Source: Pseudomonas syringae (GTDB lineage: Bacteria; Pseudomonadota; Gammaproteobacteria; Pseudomonadales; Pseudomonadaceae). From it: a stretch of DNA of 64,000 nucleotides. Shown here one piece after another: positions 5,518 through 52,871 of this stretch. The position numbers and the translations under genes are program-made. How positions within the stretch are numbered: the first letter of the stretch is position 1; every line of letters starts with the position of its first letter. The notes under the pieces are model-generated. The model had not been told where the DNA came from. It saw nothing but the letters and a program-made list of their open reading frames with translations, and did no database searches. The DNA is taken from the NCBI RefSeq assembly GCF_021605415.1, contig NZ_WKEQ01000003.1:62001-126000 (forward strand). The letters are read 5' to 3'.

Positions 5518-5541
5518 ACGAGGACAGTGAAATAAAATTTA
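5518..5541 (-). promoter_or_regulatory. PvdS (iron-starvation sigma) box for pvdA
   Basis: Read on the minus strand this is TAAAT, 16 bases, then CGT, the pattern of PvdS-dependent promoters. It ends about 100 bp before the pvdA ATG and sits just past the end of the sigma-factor gene, giving pvdA its own promoter. Confidence 0.8.
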
Positions 5542-12663: not shown

Positions 12664-12687
12664 TAAATTTGCCGCCCCGTCGGTCGT
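12664..12687 (+). promoter_or_regulatory. PvdS box for pvdM-pvdN-pvdO
   Basis: TAAAT-N16-CGT on the plus strand, about 62 bp before the chosen pvdM start. Confidence 0.85.
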
Positions 12688-12749
12688 TCTTTCCAGATAG
12701 CAACGGCCTATGCGCCTGCACCTCGACGGCGAACCTGACTGAGATGGCA

Positions 12750-24800: not shown

Positions 24801-25849
24801 CTCGCGCATTTCCAGGTTGAAGTCCTGCAACTCGCGCAACCACTGGCCGACCGGTTGTTCGGCCGGCACGTCCTTGATCACCGGCAAGGTATTGATGAAC
24901 AGGCCGAGGATCGATTCCGACGCCGGCAGGCTCCCCGGACGCCCGGCGACGGTCGCCCCGAACGCCACGCAACGCTGACCGCTGTAACGGCTGAGCAGCA
25001 TCAGCCACGCGCCTTGCACCAAGGTGTTGAGGGTGATTTGTTGTGACTGGGCAAATGCTTTGAGCTGTTCAGTGCGCTGTTCGCCCAAACGGCTGTACAG
25101 CGCTTCGTGACCGCGACCGTCACCTGTGCGCGCGATGGCGTCGGCCAGATAAGTCGGCTCATCGAGCGACGCCAAATGCTGACGCCAGAAACCTTCGCTG
25201 GCATTGGCATCCTGCTGTTGCAGCCAGTTGATGTAGCGGCGATACGGCACCGCCTCCGCCAACACCTTGCCGGAATACTGATTGAGCACTTCACCGATCA
25301 GCTGCGAACTGCTCCAGCCGTCGATCAGGATGTGGTGATACGTCCAGATCAATTGATGGCTGTCATCACTCACCCGCACCAGCGTCAGGCGTTGCAGCGG
25401 CGGGCAATCGAGATCGAAACCCTTGGCCCTTTCGCTGTCGGCCAGCGCTTGCAAGGCTTGCGCCGAACAATCGCGGTCACGCCAGTCGAGCACGCTGATC
25501 GGCAATGGCGGATCGGCGAGCACGAACTGCAACGGCTCAGCCAGATCCTGCCAGAGAAAACCGGTACGCAGGATGTCATGGCGGCGGCTGACCGTTTCCC
25601 AGGCGTCTTTCAGGCGCATCGGCTCAAGCCCCTGCACCGGCACGCTCAACTGGTTGATGTAGAGATCGGCTTGCGGCGAATTCAGGCCAAGGAACAACAT
25701 GCCCTGCTGCATCGGCGACAAGCGGTACAGACCGTCGAGCTGCCCCTCAGGCAGCGGCAACGCGGCCACTTGCGCCTCGTTCAAACCGTGCAGCGGCATG
25801 TCTGCCAGCGCCGTCACCGGAGCCGACGAACTGCCACCGGCCTGCACAC
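21831..25849 (-). other. pvdD module 4: C-A(OH-Orn proposed)-T-TE
   Basis: Approximate limits. The condensation domain is D-acceptor-like (YRLSPMQQGMLFLGL; HHILIDGWS). The code D-G-E-A-Y-F-G-V-T (FDGAHER; VAAFPPVY; IYCFGGDA; NGYGPTETVVT) is identical to that of pvdI module 2; Glu at the third position suits a basic side chain. The thioesterase (about 22640-21831) could release the peptide by cyclising terminal OH-Orn. Confidence 0.7.
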
Positions 25850-31800: not shown

Positions 31801-34800
31801 AAATGGCTCTGGGTCAATAACAGGCCAATGCCGCTGTCGCCGATCATGTAGGCCAGACGGTCTTCGGGATACGTCGGGTCAAGTGGCACGTAAGCACCGC
31901 CCGCCTTAAGGATCGCCAGCAGGCCGACGAGCATGTCCAGGCTGCGCTCTACCGCGAGCCCGACGCGCACGTCCGGCGCTACGGCGCTGTCGATCAGCTT
32001 GTGGGCCAACTGGTTGGCGCGGGCATTCAGCTCGCCGTAACTCAGGGTCTGTTCGCCGAAGGTCACGGCAATCGCCTGTGGCGCGGCAGCGGCTTGAGCT
32101 TCGATCAATTCATGCAGGCACCGGTCGCCCATGAAATCGGCAACCGCCGGATTCCATTGCAACAAGGTGGCCTGGCGTTCGGCGGCACTTTGCACAGGCA
32201 ACTCGGCAATGCGTTGCCCGCAGTCGGCGACGATGCCGTGCAGCAGGTTCGTCCAGTGTTCGGTCAGACGCGCGATGGTCTCGGCGTCGAACAGGTCAGT
32301 GGCGTAAGTCAGTTCGGCCCAGACGTTATCCGTCGATTCAAAGGTGTCGAGGGTCAAGTCGAATTGCGCCGTATTGGCAGCCCAGTGCAATCCTTCGATG
32401 TCGATCTGCGGCAGGCGCGTCGCACCTTCGGCACGACGGGCCTGGCTCTGGTGGTTGTGCAGCACTTGAAACAGTGGGCTGTGGCTCAGGCTGCGCTCCG
32501 GTTGCAGCGCGTCGACCAATTGCTCGAACGGCAGATCTTGATGGGCCTGGGCGCCGAGCACGGTGTTTTTCACTTGCTGCAACAGGCTGCGGAAGGTCTG
32601 CTGGCTATCGAATTCGGCTTTGAGCACTTGGGTGTTGACGAAGAAACCGATCAGGCCTTCGGTCTCGACCCGATGACGGTTGGCCACCGGCACGCCGACG
32701 CGGATGTCGGTCTGCCCGCTGTAGCGATGCAACAGGGTCTGGAAGGACGCCAGCAACAGTGCGAACAACGTGACGTTTTCGCGTTGCGCGACCTGTTTGA
32801 GGCCGGCGGCCAGTTCAGCAGTGACCGGGATTTCCCGGCGCGCACCGCGATAGCTTTGTTCGGCCGGACGCGGACGATCCGTCGGCAATTCCAGCAACGG
32901 TTGATCGCCGTCACCCAGTTGCGCCGTCCAGTAACTCAACTGACGCTCGCGCTCACCGGCGTCCATCCACTGGCGCTGCCAGACGGCGTAGTCGGCGTAC
33001 TGCACCGGCAACGCCGGCAGTTGCACGGTCTGCCCCTGACTGAATGCGGCGTACAGCGCGATCAACTCATTGACCATCACGCTCATCGACCAGCCATCGG
33101 AGACGATGTGGTGCAAGGTGATAATCAGCGCATGGTCATCGGCGGCCAGACGCAGCAGTTTGATCCGCAGCAACGGGCCTTGCTGGAGGTCGAACAAGTG
33201 CAGGGTTTCTTCGGCGACCAGCGCTTGCAGCGCGCTCTCATCCAGATTTTCCGCGACTGTTTGCACCTGAATATCCAGCGCTGCCGTGGCCTGAATCACT
33301 TGCAGGGTCTGCCCGTTTTCCTCAATGAAGCATGTGCGCAGGGTTTCGTGCCGAGCGATCAAGGCGTCGAAGCTTTGCTGCAACGCCGACAGGTGCAGCT
33401 CACCGCGCAAGCGCAAGGCCGCCGGCACGTGGTAAGCGGTGCTGAGGGGATCAAGTTGCCAGAGGAACCACTGACGTTCCTGGGCGTAGGACAGCGCCAG
33501 CGGTTGCGAACGCGGCAACGACACAATCGACGGTTCCCGCTGCGCCTGTTCGACACCAAGGGCCGCGACGAAATCTTCCAGAGTGCTGTGCTCGAACAGC
33601 GTGCGCAGCGGCACTTGCACGTTCAGCGCCTGACGCACTCGCGAGACGACCTGCGTCACCAGCAACGAGTGGCCGCCCAGTTCGAAGAAATTGTCGCCCA
33701 GGCCGACTTGCTCAAGTTTGAGCACCCGCTGCCAGATCCCGGCGACGGTGTGCTGCGTGGCGGTCTGCGGGGCAACATAAGCTGACTGCAACAGGCTGGC
33801 GTCGGGGGCCGGCAAGGCTTTGCGATCGACTTTGCCGTTCGGTGTCAGCGGCAGTTGCGCAAGGAACAACAGGTGCGCCGGCACCATGTATTCCGGCAGT
33901 TCAGCCTTGAGGCGGGCCTTGAGTTCGGCGCGCAGTGCGGCTTCGCCCTCGGCATCCGGCACCTCGCCGCTGGCGGCTACGACGTAGCCGACCAGTTGCG
34001 CGCCGGTGGGGCCGTCCTGCGCGACGACCACCGTTTCGCGAACGCTGTCGAGTGCGAGCAAACGTGCTTCGATTTCGCCGAGTTCGATACGGAAACCGCG
34101 GATTTTCACCTGATGGTCGATCCGCCCGATGTACTCGATCACACCCTCGGCGCGATAACGGGTCAGGTCGCCGGTGCGGTACAGGCGGTTGCCGGTACTG
34201 GAAAACGGATCGGGTACAAAGCGTTCGGCGGTCAATGCCGGACGCTGAAAATAGCCACGAGCGAGGCCTTCACCACCGATGAGCAATTCCCCCGGTGCGC
34301 CGGGCGGATTGAGCTCAAGGTCGCTGCCCAGAATGTACAACGCTGTGTTGTCGATGGGCGTGCCGAGGAATGGCTGGCTGTTTTCGATGCTGAGCGCATG
34401 TTGCGCCGACCAGATCGTGGTCTCGGTCGGGCCATAGAGGTTCCAGACGTTCGGCGACAGCGCGAGCATGCGCCGCGCCAGTTCATGCGAGAGCGCTTCG
34501 CCGCCGCAGAGGAACGTGCGCCCGGTCAGGATCGAGGCGAATTCATTGTCGAGCAGCATGCGCCAGGTCGACGGCGTGGCTTGCAGAATGCTCACGGCGT
34601 GGCGCTCGATCAGTTCGAGCACCGCTTGCGGATCCTGATGCACGTCTTTGCCGGTCAGCACCACACAGGCGCCGGCCAGCAGCGGGGCATAAATTTCCAG
34701 GCCGAAAATATCGAAGGAGAACGTGGTCAACGACAGCATGCGGTCGTGGGCGGCCATACCCGGCTGCTCGACCATGCTCGCGACAAAGTTGCTCAGGGCC

Positions 34801-36842: not shown

Positions 36843-39800
36843 CAGACTTCCTCCATATCGTCAAGCAGGGCTTCCAGCTTGCTCAGTTTCTGTTCGTTGA
36901 TTGCCCCGCCTCCGGTATCGAGTCGAGCGACAAAGTCGCGCAGGACGGGGTGCTGGAATAACAGTTGCGGGGTCAGCGTCAGGCCCAGTTCCAGGGCAAT
37001 GCGCGACACCACGTTGACCGCCAGCAGCGAGTGCCCGCCCAGTTCGAAGAAGTGATCGTTCAGGCCGATGCGCTCCACGCCGAGCACTGGCTGCCAGATC
37101 GCCGCGACCTGCTGCTCAAGCTCACTCTGCGGCGCGACATACGCGGCCTGCATCTGGCTGGCATCCACCGCTGGCAAGGCCTTGCGGTCGAGTTTGCCGT
37201 TGGGGGTCAATGGCAATTGCTCAAGAAACAGCAGATGCGCGGGAATCATGTAGTCAGGTAACGAAGACTTGAGGGCAGTCTTTAGTCCTTCGCGCAGTTG
37301 CCGCTGCGCTTCGCCGTCTTTCCCGACCAGTAACGGCGCGACCACATACGCCACCAGTTGCGCGCCTGCTTCGTCATCGATGGCCAGCACGGCCGCTTCG
37401 GTGACGGTCGGTTGTGCCAGCAGGCACGCTTCGATCTCACCGAGCTCGATTCGGTAACCACGGATTTTCACTTGATGGTCGATGCGGCCCATGTACTCCA
37501 GCTCAGCGTCGTCGCGCTGACGGATCAGGTCGCCAGTGCGGTACAGACGCTCGCCGCTGGCGGCAAACGGATTGGGCACAAACTTCTCCGCCGTCAGCGC
37601 CGCACGGCCCAGATAACCGCGCGTGATGCCGGCACCCGCCAAGTACAACTCCGCCGAGACGCCCAGCGGCACCGGTTGCAGATCGGCGTCGAGCAAGTGA
37701 CTGGCGCTGTGGTCGAGGACCCGGCCGATGCGCGGCTGACCGCCGGCGCAGCGACGCGTCCAGGTCGAATAAGTGGTGTCTTCCGACGGGCCGTACAGGT
37801 CGAACACCTGTTCGACGCTCGGCTGTTGATACAACGCTTCCACCAGCCCCTGCTTGAGCGGCTCACCGGCCAGATTGATGATGCGCACGCTCGGCGGAAT
37901 CTGCCCGGCCCGTTGCAGCGCGGCAATGGCCGACGGTACGGTGTTGATCAGGCGTACCTGATTGCGCGCCGGCAGTTGCGGCAACTCCAGCGCATTGCGC
38001 GCGATGATCAGCGAACCGCCGTTGGCCAGCGTGACGAACAGCTCCCACACCGACAGATCGAAGCACACCGAGGTCGAGGCCAATACGCCCTGAATGTCGT
38101 CGCGGCAGTACACCCGCGCCGACCAGTCGATCAGCGCCATGACATTGCGATGAGCGATGGCCACGCCTTTCGGCAAACCGGTGGAACCGGAGGTGTAGAT
38201 CACATAGGCGAGGTTGTCCGGGTTGACCGGCGTTTGCGGCGCGGTGGCCGGGTAGTCGCCGAGCCAGGCCTGCGCGTGATCCATCAACACCACGTGGGTC
38301 GGCGCCGTCAGGGTCAAGGTCGCGGCCACCGCTTGCTCGGTCAGCAACACGGGCGCACGACTGTCCGCCAGCATGTACGCCACGCGGTCGGCCGGGTAAT
38401 CCGGATCCAGCGGCACATAAGCGCCACCGGCCTTGAACACCGCCAGCAAAGCGATCAACAGTTGCTCGGAGCGCGGCATCGCAACACCCACGCGCACTTC
38501 CGGGCCGACGCCCAGGGCGACCAACTTGTGCGCCACGCGGTTGGCGCGGGCATCGAGTTCGGCGTAGGTCAGTCGGGTCGTGCCGAAGGTTACCGCCAGG
38601 GCATCCGGCGCCTCGGCGACTTGTCGCGCAATTGCCTGATGAATGCACTGCTCGGTGACGAAACGCTCGGCGACCGGCAGTGCCTGCGCGTCGATCAGGC
38701 TCAGCTCACTCAAAGAGCGCTCGCCCGCCTCGCTCATCTGCCGCAACAACTGCTGCAAATGCCGGCCCAGTTGCGCCACGCTGTCGGCTGCAAAGCTGTC
38801 GCGCTGATAGCTGAAATGCACCGACAACTCGCGGCCCATGTGTACCAGCAGCGTCAGCGGATAGTTGGTTTGTTCCTGATTGACCACCGCGCCAAAGCGC
38901 AGCCCTTCTGGCGCACCTTGCTCAAGCGCCTCGGCAATCGGGTAGTTCTCGAACACCATCAGGCTGTCGAACAGCGCGTCACCGCCCTGCCCGGCCCAGC
39001 GCTGAATGTCCGCCAGCGGCGTGTGCTCGAACTCGCGCGAGGCCAGATTGTGCGCCTGCACCTCTTGCAGCCAGCTCGCCAGACTCTGCTGGGCACGCGG
39101 CGTGGCGATCACCGGCAGTGTGTTGATGAACAAACCGATCTGCGCCTCGGCACCCGGCAAGTCGGCCGGACGCCCGGCGACCGTTGCGCCGAACGCCACG
39201 CAGTCCTTGCCGGTATAACGCTGCAACAGCAACAGCCAGGCCGCTTGCACCAACGTGTTGACGGTGACTTTCGAGGCGCGGGCAAACTCGCCCAGACGCA
39301 GCGTCAGCTCAGCATCGAGCACTTGATAATGATCGCCGTAACCGAGCTGCGCCGAATCCGCTCGCGCGATGGCATGGGCCAGACGCGTCGGTTCTTGCAG
39401 GTCGCCCAGTGTCGCCAGCCAGTAGCGTTCGGCGCCCGCGGCATCCTGACGTTGCAGCCAGCCGATGTAGTCGCGATATCGACCCGCCGGACGCGCCACC
39501 GCGTCGCCGCGATAGTGCTGCAAGACTTCGCCAAGCAACTGCGCGCTGCTCCAGCCGTCCATGAGGATGTGGTGGTTGGTGTAGATCAAGTGATGGCGAT
39601 CGGTTGCGGTGCGCACCAGCACCAGACGCAGCAGCGGCGCACAGGTCAAATCCAGACCCTGCGCCCGCTCCTCGTCGGCCACCGCTTGCAACGCGGCCTC
39701 CAGATCAATGCGGCCACTCCAGTCGAGCACGCTGAACGGCACCTCGACCTGACGTTGCACCACTTGCACCGGTTGCGGCAGATCACCCTGCCAAAAGAAC

Positions 39801-40059
39801 CCGGTGCGCAGAATGTCATGGGCATCCACCGCCGCTTGCCACGCCGCGCGGAACCGCTGCGGATCGACGCCATCGACGTCCAGACGCATCTGGTTGATGT
39901 AATCGCCATTGCCGTGTTCGAGCAGCGTGTGGAACAGCATGCCCTGTTGCATCGGCGACAGTGGATAGATGTCATCAATGGTGTGCGGTGCCGGCACCAG
40001 CGCGTCGAGTTGCGCCTGGGACAGTTGCGCCAGCGGGAAGTCCGATGGCGTCACGCCTC
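36842..40059 (-). other. pvdI module 3: C-A(Ala)-T
   Basis: Approximate limits. D-acceptor condensation domain (YPLSPMQQGMLFHTL) after the module-2 epimerase. Code D-L-W-N-N-A-L-T-Y, the same as pvdD module 3. Here the carrier is FFELGGHS, the type without an epimerase. Confidence 0.75.
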
Positions 40060-43000
40060 GGTTGGCGCTGTCGCCGCAATGCTCGATCAGCGCAGTCAGC
40101 TCTTGCAGGAAATCATCGGCCAGACCCTGGATGGTCGCCGCGTCGAACATCTCGCCGCTGAACGTCCAGCTCAGATCCAGTTCGCCACCGAACACCTTGC
40201 CGTTGAGGGCCAATGGGCTGCCCAATGGCCCCTGCAGGTTGAGCTCGGCGCCGCCGGGCTCGCCGCTCGGCACAAACAGCGCATCGTCGGCGGCATCGAA
40301 ACTGCCGTCGAACTGGCCGAGATAGTTGAACGTCAGTTGCGGCGTCGGCAAGTCTTGCAGCGCCTGACGCGCCGCCGTATCGCCCAGATGTGCGAGGGCA
40401 CCGAAGCCGATACCTTTGTTCGGAATCGCCCGCAGTTGTTCCTTGATCTGCTTCAGCGAAGCGCCCAGCTCCGCCGCCGGGGTCAGACGCGCCGGGAACA
40501 CGCTGGTGAACCAGCCGACAGTGCGGGTCAGGTCGATGTGCCCGAACAGGTCTTCGCGACCATGCCCTTCGAGCTGCACCAGCACGCTGTCATCACCGCT
40601 CCAGCGCACCATCGCCCGCGCCAGCGCGGTCAGCAGCAGGTCGTTGACCTGCGTGCGATACGCCGCCGGGGCTTGTTGCAACAGGCGTCGGGTCAGGCTT
40701 TTGTCCAACTGGCTGCGAATCGACAGCGCCATGCTGTGTTGCTGTCCGCCGTCGGGACGATCACACGGCAACAACCCTGATGCGCCTTGCAACTGCTGCT
40801 GCCAGAAGCCCGGTTCAGACTGCAATTGTGCACTCGCCGCGTACCCTTCAAGTGCCTGCGTCCAAGCCTTCACTGAACTGGTTTTCGCCGGCAGTTGCAC
40901 CGCCGCGCCAGCCACAATTTGCCGATAAGCGCTTTGCAGATCCTCGAACAGAATCCGCCACGACACGCCATCGACGACCAGGTGATGAACGATCAGCAAC
41001 AAGCGCTGACTGCCATCCGCCAGGTTCGCCAGCACCGCACGCAGCAGTGAGCCGCGGTTCAATTTCAGACTGCGCTGGGCCTCTTCAGCCAACGCTTCGA
41101 GGGCGGCGCCATCGGCCACCTCGGCGTGCCAGACAATGCCGTCGCCTGTGTGGGCGTCGATTTCGGCGTACTGCGCCGTCCAGCCTTGGGCCTGTTCGAC
41201 AAACTCAAGACGCAAGCTGTCGTGATGCACGACCAGCGCCCGCAACGCCTGCTCCAGCGCATGAACGTCCAGCGTCTGGGTCGGTTTGAGCATCACCGAC
41301 TGGTTCCAGTGGTGCCGATCCGGAATCGCCTGGGCAAAGAATTGCTGATGGATCGGCAACAGCGCCGTGACGCCGGTCACCGCTTGCTGATCGATCAGTT
41401 GCAGCGGCTCGCCGGTCTGCACCACCAAGGCCAATGCCTGGATGGTCTGGTGCTCGAACAAGTCTTTCGGGGTGAAGCGCAAACCGGCCTGCCGCGCACG
41501 GCTGACCACCTGAATCGAGATGATCGAATCGCCGCCCAACTCGAAGAAGTTGTCGCTGACACCGACCTGTTCGAGCTTGAGCACGTCCTGCCAGATCGTT
41601 GCCAGTTGCTGCTCCAGCGCTGTGTGTGGCGCGGTGTAGGTGTGTTGCAGTTGGCTGACATCAGGTTTGGGCAGGTTCTTGCGATCAAGCTTGCCGTTCG
41701 GCGTCAGGGGCATGCGTTCCAGACGCAGCACGTAGGCCGGCACCATGTGCGCCGGCAGTGTTGCCTTGAGTTGCGCACGCAGATCCTCAGCAAAATCAGC
41801 GCGTGCTGAGTCTCCCACCACATACGCCACCAAACGCTTGCCGCTGCCGGCGCTGCTTTCCTGGGCCACGACCACGGCTTCACGCACGCCATCAAGGGCT
41901 TGCAGGCTGGCTTCGACTTCGCCGAGCTCAATGCGGAAACCGCGAATCTTCACCTGATTGTCAATGCGGTCCAGGTAGTCGAACATGCCGTCGGTGCGCA
42001 GGCGCACCAGGTCGCCGGTGCGATACAGCAAGCCGCCGGCACTGAACGGATCCGCTACAAAACGCTCGGCGGTCAGCCCCGGACGGTTGAGATAACCGCG
42101 CGCCAGACCGTTGCCGCCCAGGTACAACTCACCGGCCATGCCTTGCGGCAACAGGTTCATATCAGCATCGAGCACGTAAGCGCTGCGGTCGCCGATGCGG
42201 CTGCCGATTGGCGCATACGCGGCGCCGCATGACACCTCGCGTCCGGCCTTCCAGATCAGGGGCGTGACCACGGTTTCGGTCGGGCCGTAGCCGTTGATGA
42301 TGAAGTCGGGATTCAGTGCGCGTTTGACCCGCTCGAAACTGGCGTTCGCCACCGCATCGCCGCCAAAGCAATAGATCCGCACCTTCGGCGGATGGCCGAC
42401 GCGCTCGGCGTGTTCGGCCAGTTGTTGCAGGTACACCGGCGGGAACGCGACCACAGTCACGCCGTGTTCGATCATCGCGTTGTAGGTCTGCTCCGGTGTC
42501 CACAGGCTGTCGTCGCGGATCAGCAGCGACGCACCGTGGGTCAGGCTGGTCAGCCAGCGTTCATGGGCGCCATCGAAGGCGAACGACATGAAGTGGAATT
42601 CGCAGTCGCTGTCGCGCATTTCATAGCGCTGACCGATGGCCTGACAGTGCATCGCCAACGGGCCGTGGGCGACGCTGACGCCTTTCGGGTTGCCAGTGGA
42701 ACCGGATGTGTAAATCACGTAGGCGAGGTTCTGCGGATCGAGCTGCACGTGCGGCGCTGTGATCGGCATGCCCCGCAGATCAAGGCGATCGAGTTCCAGC
42801 AATGGCACCGACTCCGCCACCGGCAATTGCGCCGAGACCGACGAATCGCTGAGCAACAGCGCCAGCCCCGAATCTTCGATCAGGTACGCCAGCCGTTCAC
42901 GGGGATAAGCGGTGTCCAGCGGCACATACGCACCACCGGCCTTGAGCACTGCGAGCAATGCGACGATCACCCCTTCGCTGCGCGGCAATGCCACGCCCAC

Positions 43001-46000
43001 CCGAGTTTCCGCGCCGACGCCACGGGCGATCAAGGCGTGGGCCAGTTGATTGGCGCGCCGGTCGATCTCGCCATAACTGAAGTGTTGGCCGTTGAAAATT
43101 ACCGCCGTGCGCGGTGGACGTTCGGCGGCCAGCGCGGCAAAACGCTGATGCACGGCGACGTCGGTCGGGTACGGTTGCGGCCGGTTGGCAGCCACTTGCC
43201 GGGCATGCTCGTCGGCGCTGGCCAGTGCGATTTCGCCGAGTTTGCGCGTGGCGGACACCGTGAACTGCTCGAGCAGTTGCAACAGGTGGGCATTGATCCC
43301 TTCGATAATCGTCGGTGCAAACTGGCTGCGCGCGAAGCTGTAGTGCAACGCCAAATGCTGGCCGAGGGTCACGGCCACGCTCAAACCGTAGTGAGTCTGT
43401 TCCTGATTGATCACCTCGCCAAACACCACGCCCTGCCCGCTGCCTTGCTGCAAGGCCTGGGCAATCGGGTAGTTCTCGAACACCAGAATGTTGTCGAACA
43501 GCGCCTCACCGCCCTGCCCCGCCCAACGCTGAATGTCCGCCAGCGGCGTGTGCTCGAAGTCGCGCAGACCGAGGTTCTGCGCCTGCACCGCTTGCAGCCA
43601 GTCACCGACGGTCTGATCCGGGCGCGGCGTGCCGATCACCGGCAAGGTGTTGATGAACAGACCGACCTGCTGCTCGATCCCCGGCAGAGCCGCCGGACGC
43701 CCGGCCACTGTCGCACCGAACGCCACGGTTTCATGACCGGTGTAGCGTTGCAGCAACAACAGCCACGCCGCTTGCACCAAAGTGTTGACCGTGACTTTTT
43801 GCTGGCGGGCGAAAGCTTCCAAAGCCTGCGTGCGCGGCACGTCGAGGGTCTGGTAATGGTCGCCATGACCGCTCTGGTCGTCGTCAGAGGAAGCAACGCG
43901 GGCCAGTCGGGTCGGCTCTTGCAGGGAGGCCAGTTGAGTGTTCCAGAAATCCTGACTCATCTGGCCGTCCTGACGCTGCAACCAGGCGATGTAATCGCGA
44001 TAACGGCCACCGGCACTCGCTGGCGTACGACCGCTGTAACGCTGCATGACTTCGCCGAGCAACTGCGAGTTGCTCCAGCCGTCCATAAGGATGTGGTGAT
44101 GGGTGTAAATCAGATGCCACTGATCGGCGGCGGTTTGCACCAGCACCAGACGCAGCAACGGTGCACGGCTCAAGTCGAAGCCCTGTCGACGCTCGGCGTC
44201 GGCCAGCGCGGCGAGTGCTTGCGCAGAGTCGTTCTGCTCACGCCAGTCGAGCGCGGTGAATGGCAGTTGCACCTGCTTGTGAACGATCTGCGCCGGTTGC
44301 GCCAGCTCGCCCTGCCACACGAAGCCGCTGCGCAGAATGTCCTGGGCATCCACCGTGGCCTGCCACGCCGCGCGGAAACGCTCGACATCAAGCCCCTGCA
44401 CGTCGACGCGCAACTGGTTGACGTATTCGCCCGCCGCTTGCTCGTACAACGTATGGAACAACAAACCCTGCTGCATCGGCGACAACGGGTACAGGTCATC
44501 GAGCTGGCCGGCCGGCACTGGCAGATCGTCAAGCTGCGTCTGAGTGATCTGCGCCAACGGGAAGTCCGACGGCGTGGTTTGCGGCACCTCCAATGTGCAG
44601 CAATGTTCGATCAATGCACCCAGTTCGACGGCGTATCGGTCGACCAGACGCTGCACGGTCGCGCTGTCGAACATCTCGCGACTGAAAGCCCAGCTCATTG
44701 ACAGTTCGCCACCGTACACTTGGCCTTCGACCGTCAGCCAGTTGGCCAGCGGCGCCGACGGATCCTGCGCCACGCCGCTGCCTTCGGTGGACGGCACGAA
44801 CAGCGCCGCCTCGTCGAATTGGCGGTCGAACTGCCCGAGATAGTTGAACGTAATGCGCGCTGGCGGCAGATCTGCCAGCGCGGCGCGCACCGACGGCGCA
44901 GCCAGATGGCGCAACACGCCATAACCCAGGCCTTTGTCCGGCACAGCGCGCAGTTGCTCCTTGATCGATTTGATCGAACCGTCGAGGTCGGCGGTGCGGG
45001 TCAGGTTGACCGCGAACAGGCTGGTGAACCAGCCAACGGTGCGGGTCAGGTCGATGTCATCGAACAGGTCTTCGCGGCCATGACCTTCCAGCTCGATCAG
45101 CGCGCCCGGTTGCCCGCTCCAGTGGCTGATCGTGCGCGTCAATGCGGTGAGCAGCAAATCACTGACCTGAGTGCGATACGCCGCCGGCGCCTGTTGCAAC
45201 AGTTGTCGGGTGCGTTCGGCGTCCAGACGCCATTCGATTTTTTGCCCGTGGATGTTTTCCAGGCTGCCGTCAGGGCGATCGCATGGCAGATCCCGCGCAT
45301 TGCGATGCTGCGCCTGCCAGTACGCCAACTGGCCGTCGAAGCGTGCGGCGTCTTCACTCAAACGCTCGGTCCAGCGCTGGAACGCAGTGGTCTTGGCCGG
45401 CAGCTGCACGCCGCCGCCCGCCGTCAGTTGTTCGTAGGCTTGCTGCAAATCTTCGAGCAGTACGCGCCAGGAAACCCCGTCCACCACCAGGTGATGAACG
45501 ATCAGCGCCAGACGCTGGCTGCCGTCGGCCAGATTGACCAGCATGGCGCGCAACAGCGGCCCGTTTTGCAGGTCGAGACTGCGCTGTGCCGCGTCGCACA
45601 GCGCGGTCAATTGTTCGGCGGACTCGGCGTTGCGCTGCCACAGCTCAGCGGTTTGCACCCATGGCCCGTGGATTTGCTGCCAGCCTTCAGGGCTGTCGAC
45701 AAAGCGCAGGCGCAAGGCGTCGTGATGGTTGATCACCCGGGTCAGCGCTGCATCCAGCCATTGCGCATTCAACGGCTCGCGAGGAGTCAGCAGCAGCGAC
45801 TGGTTCCAGTGCTCGCGGGAGGCCATCGGCCGTGTGAAGAAATCTTGCTGGATCGGCCCGAGCAGCGCTGCGCCCGTCACCGGCCCTTGATCCACCGCGC
45901 GGGTGGCGTCGAGTGTGGCAATCGACGCCAGACTGCGCACGGTCTGGTACTGGAACAAGTCCCGTGGGCTGATACGAATCCCGGCCTGTCGCGCCCGGCT

Positions 46001-49000
46001 GACCACTTGAATGGAAATGATCGAGTCACCGCCCAGCTCGAAAAAGTTGTCTTCGAGGCCGACGCGTTCCAGCCCGAGCACGTCCTGCCAGATCTCGGCG
46101 AGGGCGACTTGCACGGCATCCTGCGGCGCGACAAAGGTCTGCTGTGGCGCGGCCTCGGGTTGTGGCAAGGCTTTGCGATCCAGTTTGCCGTTGGCGGTGA
46201 CCGGCAATTGGGCCAGGGTCATCAAGTGAGTCGGCACCATGTATTCCGGCAGGCTACCAAGCAGCCAGGCTTTGACGTCCTGCTGCCATTGCTCGGCGGG
46301 ACTGGCTTTTTCCAGCACCAGATAGGCCACCAGATGCTTGCCGTCCTGCACCAGCACCACCGCCTCGCGCACCAGCGGGTGCTGCATCAGGCGGGCTTCG
46401 ATTTCACCGAGTTCGATGCGCAGACCGCGCAGCTTCACCTGATGATCGAGACGGCCGAGGTATTCGATCACCCCGTCAGCACGCTGGCGAACAAGGTCAC
46501 CGGTGCGATACAGGCGTGCGCCGTCATGGAACGGGCACGGCACAAAACGCTCGGCGGTCAGTGCCGGGCGGCGGTGATAACTGCGCGCCAGACCGGCGCC
46601 ACCCAGGTACAACTCACCTGCCACGCCATGTGGCACCAGCAACAACTGCGCATCCAGAACATGGGTGCGCAGGTTAGCGATCGGCTCACCGATCGGCACG
46701 CTGTCCGCGCCTTCGTCGACGCAAGTCCAGTGGGTGACGTCGATGGCCGCTTCGGTCGGGCCGTACAAGTTGAACAGGCCGGCGTCCGGCAGCTTTGCAA
46801 AGACTTGCTGTTGCGCATCCAGCGGCAGCGCTTCACCGCTGCAAACAATGCGTTTGAGCCCAGTGCATGCCTCAACGCCTGGCTCATGAATGAAGGCTTG
46901 CAACATTGACGGCACGAAGTGCAGCGTGCTGATGCCGTGGTGGTTGATGGTGTCGATCAGTTGCAGCGGATCGCGATGGGCGCCCGGCGCTGCCACCACC
47001 AGGCGCGCACCGGTCATCAGCGGCCAGAAAAACTCCCACACCGACACGTCGAAACTGAACGGGGTTTTCTGCAATACCGCGTCGCTGTCGTCCAGGCCAT
47101 AGGCCTGTTGCATCCAGCACAAACGGTTGACCAGCGCTGCGTGACTGTTGCCCGCCCCTTTGGGTTTGCCGGTGGAACCGGAGGTGTAAATCACATAGGC
47201 AAGGTTCAGTGGATCGATCGCCACATCGGGACGATGGTCACTGTAGCGATCCAGCCAGCCGTCGGCCTGATCGAGGGTAATGATGTTGACGCCCGCCGCC
47301 GGCAGCGCTGCCAGTAACGACGTTTGAGTCAGCAGCATTTGAATACCGCTGTCTTCGACCATGTAGGCCAGACGATCCTGCGGATACTCCGGATCCAGCG
47401 GCACATAAGCGCCGCCGGCCTTGTGAATCGCCAACAGGCCCACAACCATTTCCAGCGAGCGCTCGACGCAGATGCCGACCAGACTGTCCGGCCCTACGCC
47501 CTGCTCGCGCAACAAATGCGCGAGACGGTTGGCCCGTGCATCGAGCTGCGCGTAGCTCAGGGTTTGCTCAGCAAAGGTCAGCGCCGGAGCCTCCGGCGTG
47601 CGCGACACCTGCGCTTCGATCAGTTGATGCATGCACTGCCCGGTCGGGTATACCTCGCGGGTGTCGTTCCATGTGTGTACGAGCGTGTGTTGCTCGTCGG
47701 CCTCCAGCATCGCCAGCTCACCGATTCGCTGATCGGGGTCGGCGATCATCGCGCTCAGCAGGCGCAGCCAGTGACGGGCCATGCGCTCGACGGTCGCGGC
47801 TGAAAACAGGTCGTTGGCGTAGGTCAGCGCGGCGTGCAGCTTGCCGGCCTTTTCGTAAGTGTCGAGGGTCAGGTCGAATTGCGTGGTGCGGCTTTGCCAC
47901 TCGATCATCCCCAGCGCCAGGCCGGAAGCGGTGCTGACCGTGGTGATGTCGGCGACTTGCGGCTGATGGTTGTACATCACCTGGAACAGCGGCGTGTGGC
48001 TGAGGCTGCGTTCCAGTTTCAGCGCTTCGACCAGCCGCTCGAACGGCAGATCCTGATGGGCCTGGGCACCGAGCGAGGTTTCCTTGACCGCACGCAGCAG
48101 GTCGGCGACACGGGTCTGACCGTGCAGTTGTGTGCGCAGCACCTGAGTATTGACGAAGAAGCCGATCAGGCCTTCGATCTCGTCGCGGTTACGGTTGGCG
48201 ATGGGCACCCCGACGCGGATGTCCTGCTGCCCGGTGTAGCGATGCAGCAAGACGTTGAACGCGCCAAGCAGCAACATGAACAGCGTGACGCCATGTTGTT
48301 GCGCCGCGCTGCGCAATTGCTCGGCCAGCGCACCGTCAATGGCGAACTCATGGCGGGTGCCGCGATAGCTCGGCATGGCCGGGCGCGGCAGATCGGTCGG
48401 CAGCTCCAGCACCGGGTGCTCATCGCCCAATTGCGCCTGCCAGTATTCCAGTTGTCGCGCCTGCTCGCCGGCTTCAAGCCAGCGGCGCTGCCACAGCGCG
48501 TAGTCGCTGTACTGGATCGGCAACGCCGCCAGTTGCGGCGACCGTCCTGCCTCATGGGCGTCGTAGCAACGGATGAATTCGTCGATCAACACGTTCATCG
48601 ACCAGCCGTCCGAGACGATGTGATGCAACGTCAGCAGCAGCACGTGTTGCTGTTCATCGAGCTTGAGCAACTTGACCCGCAACAACGGGCCGATGCCCAG
48701 ATCGAACGGCAGCAGTGATTGCTGCTCGGCCGCTGCGACCACGGCGTGTTCGCGCTCGGTGGCCGGCAACGCGGTGAAATCCACGTGATCGATGATCAGC
48801 GGCGCCTCGGTCGGCACTTGTAGCAAGCTGTCGTCGGCCTGACGCTGGAACACCGTGCGCAGGGTTTCATGACGTGCCACCAGACTGGCGAACGCCGCCT
48901 CCAGCGCATCCAGATCCAAACGCCCGGTCAGGCGCACCGCGCCCGGCAAGTTGTAGGCGCCGCTCTGCGAATCCAGTTGCCAGAGAAACCACATGCGCTG

Positions 49001-49168
49001 CTGCGCGTAGGACAACGCCTGGCGGTCATGCGCCTCGACGCCTTGAGGAATCGGAAAACGGGCGAAGTCCACGCCCTCCTTGTGCAACGCCGCGAGGAAC
49101 ATCTGGCGCTTTTCCAGGGGCAACCCGATAAACCGGCGAGCAAGTTTCAAGGAGTCTTCAGCATTCAT
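36842..49168 (-). CDS. pvdI: PvdI-like pyoverdine NRPS (3 modules)
   Basis: A 4108-residue synthetase reading C-A-T-E / C-A-T-E / C-A-T. Approximate residues: C1 50-480, A1 500-1000, T1 1010-1080, E1 1100-1530; C2 1560-2000, A2 2030-2530, T2 2550-2620, E2 2640-3035; C3 3060-3540, A3 3560-4010, T3 4030-4090. The codes are DVWHVSLID (Ser), DGEAYFGVT (proposed OH-Orn) and DLWNNALTY (Ala). C1 is of the L-acceptor type (LSYAQQRMWFLWQLD), as expected after the L-Dab that ends PvdL. The short C-terminal tail after T3 (about 20 residues, acidic, EALLDDMEEV) is probably a docking element for the next NRPS. A PvdS box with CTAAT lies 57 bp upstream. The name follows position and role; strains differ in how modules are shared between pvdI and pvdJ. 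Confidence 0.88.
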   Translation of the reverse strand: MNAEDSLKLARRFIGLPLEKRQMFLAALHKEGVDFARFPIPQGVEAHDRQALSYAQQRMWFLWQLDSQSGAYNLPGAVRLTGRLDLDALEAAFASLVARHETLRTVFQRQADDSLLQVPTEAPLIIDHVDFTALPATEREHAVVAAAEQQSLLPFDLGIGPLLRVKLLKLDEQQHVLLLTLHHIVSDGWSMNVLIDEFIRCYDAHEAGRSPQLAALPIQYSDYALWQRRWLEAGEQARQLEYWQAQLGDEHPVLELPTDLPRPAMPSYRGTRHEFAIDGALAEQLRSAAQQHGVTLFMLLLGAFNVLLHRYTGQQDIRVGVPIANRNRDEIEGLIGFFVNTQVLRTQLHGQTRVADLLRAVKETSLGAQAHQDLPFERLVEALKLERSLSHTPLFQVMYNHQPQVADITTVSTASGLALGMIEWQSRTTQFDLTLDTYEKAGKLHAALTYANDLFSAATVERMARHWLRLLSAMIADPDQRIGELAMLEADEQHTLVHTWNDTREVYPTGQCMHQLIEAQVSRTPEAPALTFAEQTLSYAQLDARANRLAHLLREQGVGPDSLVGICVERSLEMVVGLLAIHKAGGAYVPLDPEYPQDRLAYMVEDSGIQMLLTQTSLLAALPAAGVNIITLDQADGWLDRYSDHRPDVAIDPLNLAYVIYTSGSTGKPKGAGNSHAALVNRLCWMQQAYGLDDSDAVLQKTPFSFDVSVWEFFWPLMTGARLVVAAPGAHRDPLQLIDTINHHGISTLHFVPSMLQAFIHEPGVEACTGLKRIVCSGEALPLDAQQQVFAKLPDAGLFNLYGPTEAAIDVTHWTCVDEGADSVPIGEPIANLRTHVLDAQLLLVPHGVAGELYLGGAGLARSYHRRPALTAERFVPCPFHDGARLYRTGDLVRQRADGVIEYLGRLDHQVKLRGLRIELGEIEARLMQHPLVREAVVLVQDGKHLVAYLVLEKASPAEQWQQDVKAWLLGSLPEYMVPTHLMTLAQLPVTANGKLDRKALPQPEAAPQQTFVAPQDAVQVALAEIWQDVLGLERVGLEDNFFELGGDSIISIQVVSRARQAGIRISPRDLFQYQTVRSLASIATLDATRAVDQGPVTGAALLGPIQQDFFTRPMASREHWNQSLLLTPREPLNAQWLDAALTRVINHHDALRLRFVDSPEGWQQIHGPWVQTAELWQRNAESAEQLTALCDAAQRSLDLQNGPLLRAMLVNLADGSQRLALIVHHLVVDGVSWRVLLEDLQQAYEQLTAGGGVQLPAKTTAFQRWTERLSEDAARFDGQLAYWQAQHRNARDLPCDRPDGSLENIHGQKIEWRLDAERTRQLLQQAPAAYRTQVSDLLLTALTRTISHWSGQPGALIELEGHGREDLFDDIDLTRTVGWFTSLFAVNLTRTADLDGSIKSIKEQLRAVPDKGLGYGVLRHLAAPSVRAALADLPPARITFNYLGQFDRQFDEAALFVPSTEGSGVAQDPSAPLANWLTVEGQVYGGELSMSWAFSREMFDSATVQRLVDRYAVELGALIEHCCTLEVPQTTPSDFPLAQITQTQLDDLPVPAGQLDDLYPLSPMQQGLLFHTLYEQAAGEYVNQLRVDVQGLDVERFRAAWQATVDAQDILRSGFVWQGELAQPAQIVHKQVQLPFTALDWREQNDSAQALAALADAERRQGFDLSRAPLLRLVLVQTAADQWHLIYTHHHILMDGWSNSQLLGEVMQRYSGRTPASAGGRYRDYIAWLQRQDGQMSQDFWNTQLASLQEPTRLARVASSDDDQSGHGDHYQTLDVPRTQALEAFARQQKVTVNTLVQAAWLLLLQRYTGHETVAFGATVAGRPAALPGIEQQVGLFINTLPVIGTPRPDQTVGDWLQAVQAQNLGLRDFEHTPLADIQRWAGQGGEALFDNILVFENYPIAQALQQGSGQGVVFGEVINQEQTHYGLSVAVTLGQHLALHYSFARSQFAPTIIEGINAHLLQLLEQFTVSATRKLGEIALASADEHARQVAANRPQPYPTDVAVHQRFAALAAERPPRTAVIFNGQHFSYGEIDRRANQLAHALIARGVGAETRVGVALPRSEGVIVALLAVLKAGGAYVPLDTAYPRERLAYLIEDSGLALLLSDSSVSAQLPVAESVPLLELDRLDLRGMPITAPHVQLDPQNLAYVIYTSGSTGNPKGVSVAHGPLAMHCQAIGQRYEMRDSDCEFHFMSFAFDGAHERWLTSLTHGASLLIRDDSLWTPEQTYNAMIEHGVTVVAFPPVYLQQLAEHAERVGHPPKVRIYCFGGDAVANASFERVKRALNPDFIINGYGPTETVVTPLIWKAGREVSCGAAYAPIGSRIGDRSAYVLDADMNLLPQGMAGELYLGGNGLARGYLNRPGLTAERFVADPFSAGGLLYRTGDLVRLRTDGMFDYLDRIDNQVKIRGFRIELGEVEASLQALDGVREAVVVAQESSAGSGKRLVAYVVGDSARADFAEDLRAQLKATLPAHMVPAYVLRLERMPLTPNGKLDRKNLPKPDVSQLQHTYTAPHTALEQQLATIWQDVLKLEQVGVSDNFFELGGDSIISIQVVSRARQAGLRFTPKDLFEHQTIQALALVVQTGEPLQLIDQQAVTGVTALLPIHQQFFAQAIPDRHHWNQSVMLKPTQTLDVHALEQALRALVVHHDSLRLEFVEQAQGWTAQYAEIDAHTGDGIVWHAEVADGAALEALAEEAQRSLKLNRGSLLRAVLANLADGSQRLLLIVHHLVVDGVSWRILFEDLQSAYRQIVAGAAVQLPAKTSSVKAWTQALEGYAASAQLQSEPGFWQQQLQGASGLLPCDRPDGGQQHSMALSIRSQLDKSLTRRLLQQAPAAYRTQVNDLLLTALARAMVRWSGDDSVLVQLEGHGREDLFGHIDLTRTVGWFTSVFPARLTPAAELGASLKQIKEQLRAIPNKGIGFGALAHLGDTAARQALQDLPTPQLTFNYLGQFDGSFDAADDALFVPSGEPGGAELNLQGPLGSPLALNGKVFGGELDLSWTFSGEMFDAATIQGLADDFLQELTALIEHCGDSANRGVTPSDFPLAQLSQAQLDALVPAPHTIDDIYPLSPMQQGMLFHTLLEHGNGDYINQMRLDVDGVDPQRFRAAWQAAVDAHDILRTGFFWQGDLPQPVQVVQRQVEVPFSVLDWSGRIDLEAALQAVADEERAQGLDLTCAPLLRLVLVRTATDRHHLIYTNHHILMDGWSSAQLLGEVLQHYRGDAVARPAGRYRDYIGWLQRQDAAGAERYWLATLGDLQEPTRLAHAIARADSAQLGYGDHYQVLDAELTLRLGEFARASKVTVNTLVQAAWLLLLQRYTGKDCVAFGATVAGRPADLPGAEAQIGLFINTLPVIATPRAQQSLASWLQEVQAHNLASREFEHTPLADIQRWAGQGGDALFDSLMVFENYPIAEALEQGAPEGLRFGAVVNQEQTNYPLTLLVHMGRELSVHFSYQRDSFAADSVAQLGRHLQQLLRQMSEAGERSLSELSLIDAQALPVAERFVTEQCIHQAIARQVAEAPDALAVTFGTTRLTYAELDARANRVAHKLVALGVGPEVRVGVAMPRSEQLLIALLAVFKAGGAYVPLDPDYPADRVAYMLADSRAPVLLTEQAVAATLTLTAPTHVVLMDHAQAWLGDYPATAPQTPVNPDNLAYVIYTSGSTGLPKGVAIAHRNVMALIDWSARVYCRDDIQGVLASTSVCFDLSVWELFVTLANGGSLIIARNALELPQLPARNQVRLINTVPSAIAALQRAGQIPPSVRIINLAGEPLKQGLVEALYQQPSVEQVFDLYGPSEDTTYSTWTRRCAGGQPRIGRVLDHSASHLLDADLQPVPLGVSAELYLAGAGITRGYLGRAALTAEKFVPNPFAASGERLYRTGDLIRQRDDAELEYMGRIDHQVKIRGYRIELGEIEACLLAQPTVTEAAVLAIDDEAGAQLVAYVVAPLLVGKDGEAQRQLREGLKTALKSSLPDYMIPAHLLFLEQLPLTPNGKLDRKALPAVDASQMQAAYVAPQSELEQQVAAIWQPVLGVERIGLNDHFFELGGHSLLAVNVVSRIALELGLTLTPQLLFQHPVLRDFVARLDTGGGAINEQKLSKLEALLDDMEEV
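40060..44579 (-). other. pvdI module 2: C-A(OH-Orn proposed)-T-E, giving a D residue
   Basis: Approximate limits. The condensation domain is of the D-acceptor type (YPLSPMQQGLLFHTL), matching the upstream epimerase. The code D-G-E-A-Y-F-G-V-T is identical to pvdD module 4. Carrier LGGDS; epimerase motif HHLVVDGVSWR. The product is probably the N5-acylated D-hydroxyornithine of the side chain. Confidence 0.7.
44580..49168 (-). other. pvdI module 1: C-A(Ser)-T-E, giving D-Ser
   Basis: Approximate limits. The code D-V-W-H-V-S-L-I-D (FDVSVWE; TLHFVPSM; IVCSGEAL; NLYGPTEAAID) is two substitutions from the EntF Ser code DVWHFSLVD. Carrier LGGDS; epimerase motif HHLVVDGVSWR. Confidence 0.88.
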
Positions 49169-49313: not shown

Positions 49314-50048
49314 TCAGGCCATCGCGGTCAGCGCATGGCGCCGATGGTGCACGACCAGTTGATCCTTGATCACGCGCAGCACTTTGGCTTCGTGCTCATG
49401 AATGAAGAAGTGTCCGCCCGCCAACATGTCCACGGAAAAGCTGCCGCGAGTCTCCTGGCTCCAGCCGATCAGTTGTTCGGTGGTGGCCCGGTCGGCCTTG
49501 CCGCCGAGCACATGCACCGGGCAGTCAAGCAGTGGCCGCTGCAACGGCTGGAACGTGCCGCACAGCTGAAAATCGGCGCGCAGGATCGGCAAGGTCAGGC
49601 TCATCAGTTCTTCGTTGGCGAGCACTTCTTCGCTGGTGCCGTTGAGCGTGCGCAGTTGGTCGATCAACTCGGCATCGGTTTTCGGGTCGGCAAAACCCCG
49701 ATCGTAATCGGCACGCAGGGTCGGCGCTGCGGTGCCCGAGGCAAACAGCGCCACCGGCTCAGGGCAACCGAGCGCGCGCAGGGCGTGAGCGATTTCGCAG
49801 GCGAGCAGTGCGCCCAGGCTGTGGCCGAACAAGGCATACGGCGCCTTCAATGTCGGGCGCAGTTCCTTGGCCAATTGCATGGCCAGCGTGCGCATGTCGG
49901 TGTGCAGCGGTTCGCCGTAGCGCGCGCCGCGCCCGGGCAATTCCACGGGTTGCAGTTGCAGCCACTGGGGCAATTTCGGCCGCCAGCGGCTGTAGACCAT
50001 GGCGCTGGCACCGGAATAGGGCAGGCACAATAGAGTCAGCTTGGTCAC
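49314..50048 (-). CDS. pvdG: PvdG-like type II thioesterase
   Basis: A stand-alone alpha/beta-hydrolase thioesterase of about 244 residues: LLCLPYSGASAMVYSRW near the start, PVELPGRGARYGEP, nucleophile FGHSLGALLACE, and the C-terminal His in AGGHFFIHEH. Such enzymes clear misprimed carrier domains of the NRPSs. The frame opens at a TTG (50078), but GAGGGA lies 6 nt before the GTG at 50048, giving MTKLTLLCLPYSG. It lies 145 bp upstream of pvdI on the same strand with a separate PvdS-like box. In P. aeruginosa pvdG sits near pvdL/pvdS instead. Confidence 0.85.
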   Translation of the reverse strand: MTKLTLLCLPYSGASAMVYSRWRPKLPQWLQLQPVELPGRGARYGEPLHTDMRTLAMQLAKELRPTLKAPYALFGHSLGALLACEIAHALRALGCPEPVALFASGTAAPTLRADYDRGFADPKTDAELIDQLRTLNGTSEEVLANEELMSLTLPILRADFQLCGTFQPLQRPLLDCPVHVLGGKADRATTEQLIGWSQETRGSFSVDMLAGGHFFIHEHEAKVLRVIKDQLVVHHRRHALTAMA

Positions 50049-50083
50049 CACGCGTCCCTCGGAAAATTCGTCTGTCAAAAGAA

Positions 50084-50108
50084 ACGGTTCGCCGGGCCGG
50101 CAAATTAG
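50084..50108 (-). promoter_or_regulatory. Degenerate PvdS box for pvdG
   Basis: On the minus strand CTAAT, 17 bases, CGT: one base and one spacing step from the consensus. It is 35 bp from the pvdG start and only 11 bp from a perfect divergent box. Confidence 0.55.
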
Positions 50109-50119
50109 TCGTCGCGTCT

Positions 50120-50143
50120 TAAATTCCGTTCGTAAGCGCTCGT
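50120..50143 (+). promoter_or_regulatory. PvdS box for the SCP2-cupin gene
   Basis: TAAAT-N16-CGT on the plus strand, 37 bp before the GTG start at 50181. The match is exact. Confidence 0.85.
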
Positions 50144-50180
50144 TACCTGTTCAGGCCAAAACCAACAACGAGGCGTCACC

Positions 50181-51314
50181 GTGGATCTGCAGACCATCCT
50201 GGGTAAACTGTTCGCCAATGCCGGCGCCGTCGGTATCGAAGGCGTGTTCCAATTCGTGTTCGGCCCGCATCAGGCCTACTGGTCGGAGATCAAGGGCAGC
50301 AGCCACACCGAGCCCGGCCGGCATGCGGCCCCCGACGTGACCATTGAAGTCGCCGAGCGGGATTTTCTCGGGATCATGGGCGGCATGGCCAATGTCGAGG
50401 AATTGTTCGCCAGCGGTCGCTTGAAGATCGGCGGCAACATGGGCCTGGCGACGTTGTTGCCGCAGATCATCGACCACGCCCGACACGGCGGCGCTGCGGT
50501 GGAAAAGGTCGACATGAACAAGCGCTATCCGACCCCGCCGCGCTTCAGCGAAAAACTCACGGCCGGCTTGCCGACCCAGTTCACGGTAGAGCGCCGGCCG
50601 CGCGATGAGTTGTCGGTCAGTGAATTCAAGGCGCGCTATCTGCCTCACGGCATTCCCGTGGTGATCGGCAATGCGTTGCAGGACTGGCCGCTGTTCAAGC
50701 TCAGCCGGGAAGAATCGCTGGTGCATTTCGCCGAACTGCAAGGCATCACCCGCCACGGCGACTACGTGAAGAAAACCTTCTCCACGGAGCGTGATTTCCG
50801 CTCCACGTCGATGGCCGATTTCATTGCCTCGCTGGATAACCCGGCGCCAAAACGCGCGGACGGCGAGCCACCGGCCTACATGGGTAACAACATCCTGCCG
50901 GCGCAGTTGATCGAACAGATCAAATACCCGCCCTATTTCGACGCCTCATTATTCATTCCTCCACGGATCTGGATCGGACCCAAAGGCACCCTCACCCCAC
51001 TGCACCGCGACGACACCGACAACCTGTTCGCCCAGGTCTGGGGCCAGAAAAAATTCACCCTCGCCGCGCCACATCACCGCCAAGCACTGGGCACCTGGTC
51101 GACGGCGCCCAAAGGTGGGCTGGACGGCTGCGACTTCAATCCGGATGCGCCGGACTACGACCGCTTCCCCAGCGCCCGCGACGTGACCTTCCTGCGCGTG
51201 ACACTGGAGGCCGGCGATCTGCTGTTTTTACCTGAAGGCTGGTTTCACCAGGTGGAATCGGTGTCCACCTCCCTGTCGGTCAATTTCTGGGTCAATTCAG
51301 CAAGGGGCTGGTAA
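50181..51314 (+). CDS. SCP2-cupin (JmjC-like) Fe(II)/2-oxoglutarate dioxygenase, PvdS-linked
   Basis: A 377-residue two-domain protein. Residues 1-105 look like an SCP2 sterol-carrier-type lipid-binding domain (VTIEVAERDFLGIMGG; FASGRLKIGGNMGLATLLPQ). Residues 130-377 are a cupin_8/JmjC-type hydroxylase: GIPVVIGNALQDWPLF, IWIGPKGTLTPLHRDDTDNL with the metal ligands His275 and Asp277, KFTLAAPHH, and GDLLFLPEGWFHQV with His356. The catalytic triad looks intact. The start is GTG, with GAGG 7 nt upstream. It has a perfect PvdS box and diverges from pvdG, so it should be made under iron starvation. It is not one of the standard pvd enzymes known to me. It might hydroxylate a pyoverdine residue, an acyl chain or a lipid; the substrate is unknown. 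Confidence 0.8.
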   Translation: MDLQTILGKLFANAGAVGIEGVFQFVFGPHQAYWSEIKGSSHTEPGRHAAPDVTIEVAERDFLGIMGGMANVEELFASGRLKIGGNMGLATLLPQIIDHARHGGAAVEKVDMNKRYPTPPRFSEKLTAGLPTQFTVERRPRDELSVSEFKARYLPHGIPVVIGNALQDWPLFKLSREESLVHFAELQGITRHGDYVKKTFSTERDFRSTSMADFIASLDNPAPKRADGEPPAYMGNNILPAQLIEQIKYPPYFDASLFIPPRIWIGPKGTLTPLHRDDTDNLFAQVWGQKKFTLAAPHHRQALGTWSTAPKGGLDGCDFNPDAPDYDRFPSARDVTFLRVTLEAGDLLFLPEGWFHQVESVSTSLSVNFWVNSARGW

Positions 51315-52670: not shown

Positions 52671-52749
52671 CGGTGCAGCCTCAACAAGGGAGTGCACGGT
52701 GCCATAAACGCTGGAGCCTCGACAAATCCGGAACCCGCTCACGGAGACT

Positions 52750-52774
52750 CGTTCCCACGTTCTGCATGGGAACG
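52750..52774. repeat. Short palindrome (REP-like)
   Basis: CGTTCCCA and TGGGAACG flank a 9-base centre. This is a widespread Pseudomonas intergenic palindrome type, here between the divergent MFS and SDR genes. Confidence 0.65.
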
Positions 52775-52871
52775 ATCATTGCCGGGATGTCGATCTTTTC
52801 ATATTTGCCCGTGAACTCTCGTCGGCCGCCATCAGTCAGCTAGGTAAGCCCTCAACCCAGGCGCGATCCGC

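Follow-up and report, generated by a model that had tools for sequence, protein, structure and literature searches.

A PvdS-box-associated SCP2-JmjC protein as a candidate hydroxylase for the malamide/malate side chain of pyoverdines

In a 64,000-nucleotide stretch of Pseudomonas syringae DNA (contig NZ_WKEQ01000003.1, positions 62,001 to 126,000; hereafter the window), a gene at 50181..51314 within a pyoverdine cluster encodes an SCP2-like lipid-carrier domain fused to a JmjC/Cupin_8 domain. With moderate confidence, we propose that this SCP2-JmjC protein is the hitherto unassigned hydroxylase that adds the hydroxyl group of the malamide or malate side chain present in some pyoverdines. From the observed domain architecture, conserved motif, promoter box and linkage to pyoverdine genes, we infer a substrate, an order of steps and a cytoplasmic site of action.

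Domain architecture and predicted active site

The gene and the parts of its product are as follows.

50181..51314, forward strand: SCP2 + Cupin_8/JmjC protein gene, GTG start, 377 amino acids
50181..50495, forward strand: N-terminal SCP2-like domain, taken by eye to span residues 1-105 (Pfam matches 45-97; elements of the AF2 model)
50622..51290, forward strand: Cupin_8/JmjC domain, residues 148-370 (Pfam)
51003..51011, forward strand: H275-R-D277, predicted Fe(II) ligands (position checked; H275 and D277 invariant)
51246..51248, forward strand: H356, third predicted Fe(II) ligand (invariant)
50994..50996, forward strand: T272, presumed counterpart, by eye, of a 2-oxoglutarate contact in FIH (invariant)
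51021..51023, forward strand: N281, one of three predicted 2-oxoglutarate residues (invariant)
51048..51050, forward strand: K290, predicted 2-oxoglutarate-binding lysine (invariant), which we take to correspond to K214 of FIH
50739..50813, forward strand: residues 187-211, a segment with several basic residues, highly conserved among orthologues

Pfam assigned residues 148-370 to Cupin_8 (PF13621; E 4.3e-37, 128.8 bits against a curated cut-off of 27.4) and residues 45-97 to SCP2 (PF02036; E 9.9e-9, 35.9 bits against 21.3). JmjC_2 also exceeded its Pfam cut-off and JmjC remained under its own; these four were the only families at E 0.001, with neither TauD nor a DNA-binding family found at that threshold. 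SCP2 chains were matched by sequence (best E 1.3e-7), the 50 structural matches listed were JmjC chains with no SCP2 fold among them, and the protein has the double-stranded beta-helix fold of JmjC/Cupin_8 hydroxylases. Residues 188-208 have a predicted local distance difference test score (pLDDT) below 50 in the predicted structure, and the conserved segment around them is a possible substrate lid. At the 79 scored loci of the genus, the start codon is GTG in 71 and ATG in 6.

T272, H275, D277, N281, K290 and H356 are all invariant among 118 unique orthologues. This invariance, together with the absence at E 0.001 of any DNA-binding family among the Pfam matches, argues against a regulator or other accessory protein devoid of catalysis, a role for which the database name 'transcription factor jumonji' on the homologue P0003 speaks and which we regard as extremely improbable.

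A PvdS-type box in a divergent promoter region

The region upstream of the gene contains the following features.

50120..50143, forward strand: PvdS-type box TAAAT-N16-CGT, TAAATTCCGTTCGTAAGCGCTCGT, ending 37 bp before the GTG start
50084..50107, reverse strand: one-mismatch box TAATT-N16-CGT, probably serving pvdG
49314..50078, reverse strand: pvdG-type thioesterase (Pfam Thioesterase family), the divergent neighbour, presumably pvdG by its position

The exact box places the SCP2-JmjC gene under a predicted PvdS-type promoter. The window contains six exact TAAAT-N16-CGT matches where 0.46 would be expected, a number attained in none of 100 shuffles; once a single mismatch is tolerated, the 25 matches against 18.2 expected are near chance (nine of the shuffles reach 25). 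Of the other five exact boxes, four coincide with or precede the starts of pvdR-, pvdP-, pvdM- and pvdE-like genes (pvdR, pvdM and pvdE being names that we presume from family), and the fifth lies at 5518 on the reverse strand. The box with a spacer of 16 is kept at 71 of the 79 genus loci and at 73 of 80 named loci, two overlapping sets, mostly 36-37 bp before the SCP2-JmjC start; among other forward spacers of 13-19, none occurred in the genus set and a single spacer-13 match in the named set. As the one-mismatch box lies very near the TTG listed for pvdG, translation probably begins at a GTG within that open reading frame (50048-50078, by eye).

The first-pass annotation had described an SCP2 domain fused to a cupin/JmjC domain with H275, D277 and H356, an exact box 37 bp upstream and divergence from pvdG, and the Pfam matches, residue positions, box and reverse-strand thioesterase given above agree with it on each point.

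A PvdS-type box fits iron starvation and an SCP2 domain suggests a lipid ligand, as would be expected if the enzyme hydroxylated the precursor's fatty acyl chain, or else a lipid of the membrane, under iron starvation and left no mark on the product. We consider this improbable: the gene is linked to pyoverdine genes (no search for lipid genes was made), and the relatives with solved structures are known to act on peptides or tRNA.

Orthologues are linked to pyoverdine genes

Of 398 Pseudomonas genomes searched, 86 had a match at E 1e-20, and exclusion of three weak or partial matches (G103, G174, G209) left 83 carriers, among which the gene is broken or truncated in G034, G105 and G153 and the match in G080 covers residues 44-377 only. 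The tyrosinase gene pvdP (NF051454) is present in 83 of 83 carriers versus 200 of 315 non-carriers, a G304 match (E 7.7e-4) not being counted as present; such counts, drawn from related genomes, are not independent of one another. Flanking DNA of up to about 20 kb contains a pvd gene or a pyoverdine-like nonribosomal peptide synthetase (NRPS) at 75 of the 79 scored loci, and 114 of 120 unique orthologues adjoin one or the other. The neighbourhoods of these 120 comprise pvdG (81), NRPS only (13), pvdN (12), pvdP (6), pvdG with pvdP (2) and none of these (6). In the NRPS-only class, 12 of 13 genes lie within 331 bp of an NRPS that resembles those of the window and may make pyoverdine.

A tree of 59 orthologues, which kept 20 of the 81 in the pvdG class, requires seven neighbourhood changes where the least possible is five. 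Linkage, tree and box counts together suggest that the gene moved around but stayed largely in pyoverdine loci with its own promoter. A pyoverdine-linked enzyme had been suggested from the window alone; the tabulated homologues support this suggestion, and a scatter without pvd linkage was not found.

In the P. putida group, the gene is separated from pvdN by about 1.2 kb and an intervening alpha/beta-hydrolase gene (P. capeferrum WCS358, L174, NF051467). The window has an alpha/beta-hydrolase 45-48% identical to this one at 20818-21777 on the reverse strand, after the NRPS genes. The MFS, SDR and GH15-like genes downstream of the SCP2-JmjC gene (51498-55491) recur beside it in many fluorescens-group loci. 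In a class-level search of 274 genomes, the six matching genomes besides the window's own match part or all of the cupin half only.

Broken or truncated copies occur in L108 (G034), L086 and L166 (G105 / P. baetica) and L110 (G153), and the PvdS box is still present beside those in L086, L108 and L110, which would fit a dispensable tailoring step.

The peptide leaves the side chain as the probable hydroxylated part

The pyoverdine genes of the window comprise the following.

36842..49168, reverse strand: NRPS with three modules (Ser, hydroxyornithine (OHOrn)-like, Ala-like), adenylation-domain codes by eye
21831..36842, reverse strand: NRPS with four modules and a thioesterase domain (Gly, Thr, Ala-like, OHOrn-like), adenylation-domain codes by eye
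10946..12565, reverse strand: pvdP tyrosinase (NF051454)
12669..14120, forward strand: pvdM-type dipeptidase (Peptidase_M19), listed with a TTG start; this TTG overlaps a PvdS box, and the true start is thus probably further in
14117..15397, forward strand: pvdN, class-V pyridoxal 5'-phosphate (PLP) enzyme with a twin-arginine N-terminus; its WCS358 counterpart is named PvdN by NF051467
15435..16343, forward strand: pvdO (NF051459)

Read by eye, the adenylation-domain codes of the two NRPSs (pvdL not included) give the order Ser - OHOrn-like - Ala-like - Gly - Thr - Ala-like - OHOrn-like. Modules for Asp or His are not apparent among these seven, and the codes agree with the first-pass statement that no residue of the peptide demands a beta-hydroxyl group. 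We therefore rejected, for this cluster, beta-hydroxylation of a peptide Asp or His in the manner of SyrP. We consider this role very improbable: hydroxylated Asp or His (OHAsp, OHHis) is present in many pyoverdines and FIH-like JmjC enzymes hydroxylate Asn, Asp and His, but GB-1 already has a SyrP homologue and the SCP2-JmjC protein has no TauD match. No residue encoded by the window NRPSs requires a C-hydroxyl, and the known C-hydroxylated part that remains is the Glu-derived side chain. The myristoylated precursor would be a fitting substrate, as this very side chain is hydroxylated in malamide pyoverdines.

Side-chain chemistry and published masses

According to a 2018 review (PMC6206403, drawn on here, like the other papers cited by accession, as excerpts), malamide is made by an unknown enzyme that PAO1 and A506 lack, and the position of its hydroxyl is unresolved; a second review, of 2022, likewise gives the origin of the malamide/malate side chain as unknown. 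The side chain is succinate or ketoglutarate in SBW25 (PMC2235872) and malic acid amide in GB-1 (PMC4019867).

Masses reported in the excerpt of PMC12195549 contain a +15.99 pair in three of three checked carriers. For P. fulva NBRC 16637, they are 1204.56 and 1220.55 (Table 4), and starting from a fragment mass in PMC8888394 Table 2 we calculated 1204.559 and 1220.554. For P. putida NBRC 14671, they are 1342.58 and 1358.58, for which the paper assigns no peptide, so that the pair may or may not reflect hydroxylation. For P. putida NBRC 14164, the values 1319.50, 1336.52 and 1352.52 are arithmetically spaced like imide, amide and amide +16.00. The pair was not found for NBRC 100650 (which we take to be KT2440) and P. 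parafulva 16636 in the excerpted Table 4 of PMC12195549.

P. taiwanensis, which carries the gene (L184) and makes a pyoverdine of m/z 1044, was dropped as a test case that decides nothing, since OHHis with succinate has the same mass as His with malate (hand arithmetic). Near its orthologue lies a gene for a 1533-aa protein with ToxA_N, LRR and NEL domains (L184:14221-18822, reverse strand).

Side-chain data for carriers were not found in the excerpts of PMC11366639, PMC4509608, PMC7676072, PMC9925543 and PMC10707752, and PMC9925543 chose succinate and succinamide forms to look at. Among the matches listed for pyoverdine literature on cupin, SCP2 or JmjC and for Pseudomonas or siderophore literature on jumonji factors (titles and abstract openings), no title concerned this gene, from which we do not claim its absence from print; the cupin in the excerpt of PMC3597554 belongs to an anti-sigma factor.

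Carriers outside Pseudomonas

A family sample of 198 genomes from 19 genera yielded only two non-Pseudomonas carriers, G449 and G437, where the orthologue follows pvdP on the same strand. G449 has three nifH matches above the cut-off, and P0124, a member of the SCP2-JmjC family, is named A. vinelandii in the protein database. The G449 locus holds the gene after pvdP, together with pvdM, two pvdO genes and an NRPS cluster about 15 kb away. In this Azotobacter-like genome, two tandem pvdO-like genes lie beside pvdM and pvdP (L202:13810-15638, forward strand).

PvdN was not found in G449 (best match 29% identity), and there the gene perhaps serves azotobactin. The enzyme could help to form the azotobactin-type chromophore, with its extra five-membered ring, instead of or besides malamide, a view to which both the G449 locus and the A. 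vinelandii name lend weight, as does the reported co-occurrence of malic/malamide and azotobactin-type forms in GB-1, MnB1, CFML 90-51 and P. fulva (excerpted sources). However, PvdN is present in 79 of the 83 Pseudomonas carriers, the excerpts name no azotobactin form for NBRC 14164 or 14671, and the cleavage chemistry is speculative; we consider this role unlikely. A related proposal, possible but doubtful, would place the SCP2-JmjC protein as the missing enzyme at a fork between malamide pyoverdines and azotobactins: it would hydroxylate, in the Glu of acylated ferribactin, the carbon that adjoins the chromophore amide, after which strains with PvdN would retain this side chain, as malamide, and Azotobacter without PvdN would cleave the side chain to give the azotobactin ring.

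Discussion

We propose the following hypothetical sequence for the formation of malamide and malate side chains, in which (i) PvdS would turn on the SCP2-JmjC gene together with the other pyoverdine genes; (ii) in the cytoplasm, the SCP2 domain would hold the myristoyl chain of the ferribactin precursor, which carries a myristoyl or myristoleoyl chain on its Glu, so that the adjacent N-terminal Glu would reach the JmjC centre; (iii) this centre would hydroxylate one methylene of the Glu using Fe(II), O2 and 2-oxoglutarate; (iv) the precursor would be exported and its acyl chain removed by PvdQ; (v) PvdN would convert the hydroxy-Glu to malamide, as it does Glu to succinamide, and hydrolysis of malamide would yield malate. 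An SCP2 domain that holds the acyl chain and brings Glu to the JmjC centre would explain why a hydroxylase in a pyoverdine cluster has a lipid-carrier domain. With hydroxylation first and a later fate that depends on the strain, carriers without PvdN are also allowed.

Several points weigh against this scenario. The hydroxylase activity is itself a prediction from sequence. Side-chain tailoring is periplasmic, yet inspection by eye, without a prediction program, shows no apparent signal peptide. A hydroxylated glutamate intermediate has never been found according to the excerpt of PMC6206403, which favours action on succinamide instead. Table 4 of PMC12195549 gives the +15.99 pair for 11 of its 13 strains (tolerance 0.025), the three checked carriers included, so that the mass test barely discriminates; the eight others are one P. 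fulva, one P. parafulva and six P. putida, and with gene status checked for three of the 13 strains, the comparison is one-sided. Among pvdP-positive genomes, the association with PvdN (79 of 83 carriers versus 173 of 200 non-carriers, two weak matches not counted) is only weakly supported (p 0.036). Four of the 83 carriers (G026, G149, G155, G181) lack PvdN at E 1e-40, having 21-30% identity matches or none at E 1e-8; the known PvdN route could not yield malamide in these or in G449. No P. aeruginosa name is among the matches listed (120 + 120 proteins, 80 loci; the non-malamide strains PAO1, A506, SBW25 and KT2440 not checked by name), but the 80 listed loci also omit NBRC 14164, a likely carrier. 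Finally, the flanking DNA of five orthologues, which share a single long branch, contains no pvd gene.

The long-branched clade comprises L102-L105 and L187 (P. taiwanensis, guariconensis, shirazensis, reidholzensis and one more); L102-L105 keep the PvdS box, L187 does not figure among the loci listed as lacking it, and the function of these orthologues may differ. At P. viridiflava L188, an acyltransferase-like membrane gene (HGSNAT_cat, PF07786; 7222-8430, reverse strand) stands between pvdM and pvdO in the slot where pvdN is expected, perhaps for another side-chain modification. In L107 (G181) and L106 (G149), pvdM, pvdP and pvdO are spaced as in L188, where alone this gene was identified.

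The SCP2-JmjC protein differs from the JmjC/Cupin_8 hydroxylases JMJD5, JMJD7 and FIH in its N-terminal SCP2 domain, its conserved 187-211 segment and its pyoverdine linkage. With SCP2 lipid-carrier domains it shares the PF02036 match, here fused to JmjC. Like the SyrP-type Asp hydroxylases, it is a predicted iron-dependent hydroxylase in a pyoverdine cluster, but those belong to another family (TauD type), and its cluster has no Asp module by eye. It would share the Glu-derived side-chain substrate of PvdN and PtaA (PMC6206403) and lies near pvdN in the P. putida group; unlike these periplasmic PLP enzymes, it belongs to the JmjC proteins and has no signal peptide discernible by eye.

In summary, our study presents one candidate gene for the malamide/malate side chain, whose origin the reviews of 2018 and 2022 leave without explanation. 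If the proposal holds, siderophore biosynthesis would gain a JmjC enzyme that takes its guidance from a lipid-carrier domain, and the first side-chain step would move into the cytoplasm. The gene would also serve as a genome marker for producers of hydroxylated forms (83 of the 283 pvdP-positive genomes sampled), and the predicted hydroxylation would be readable as a mass shift of 15.995.
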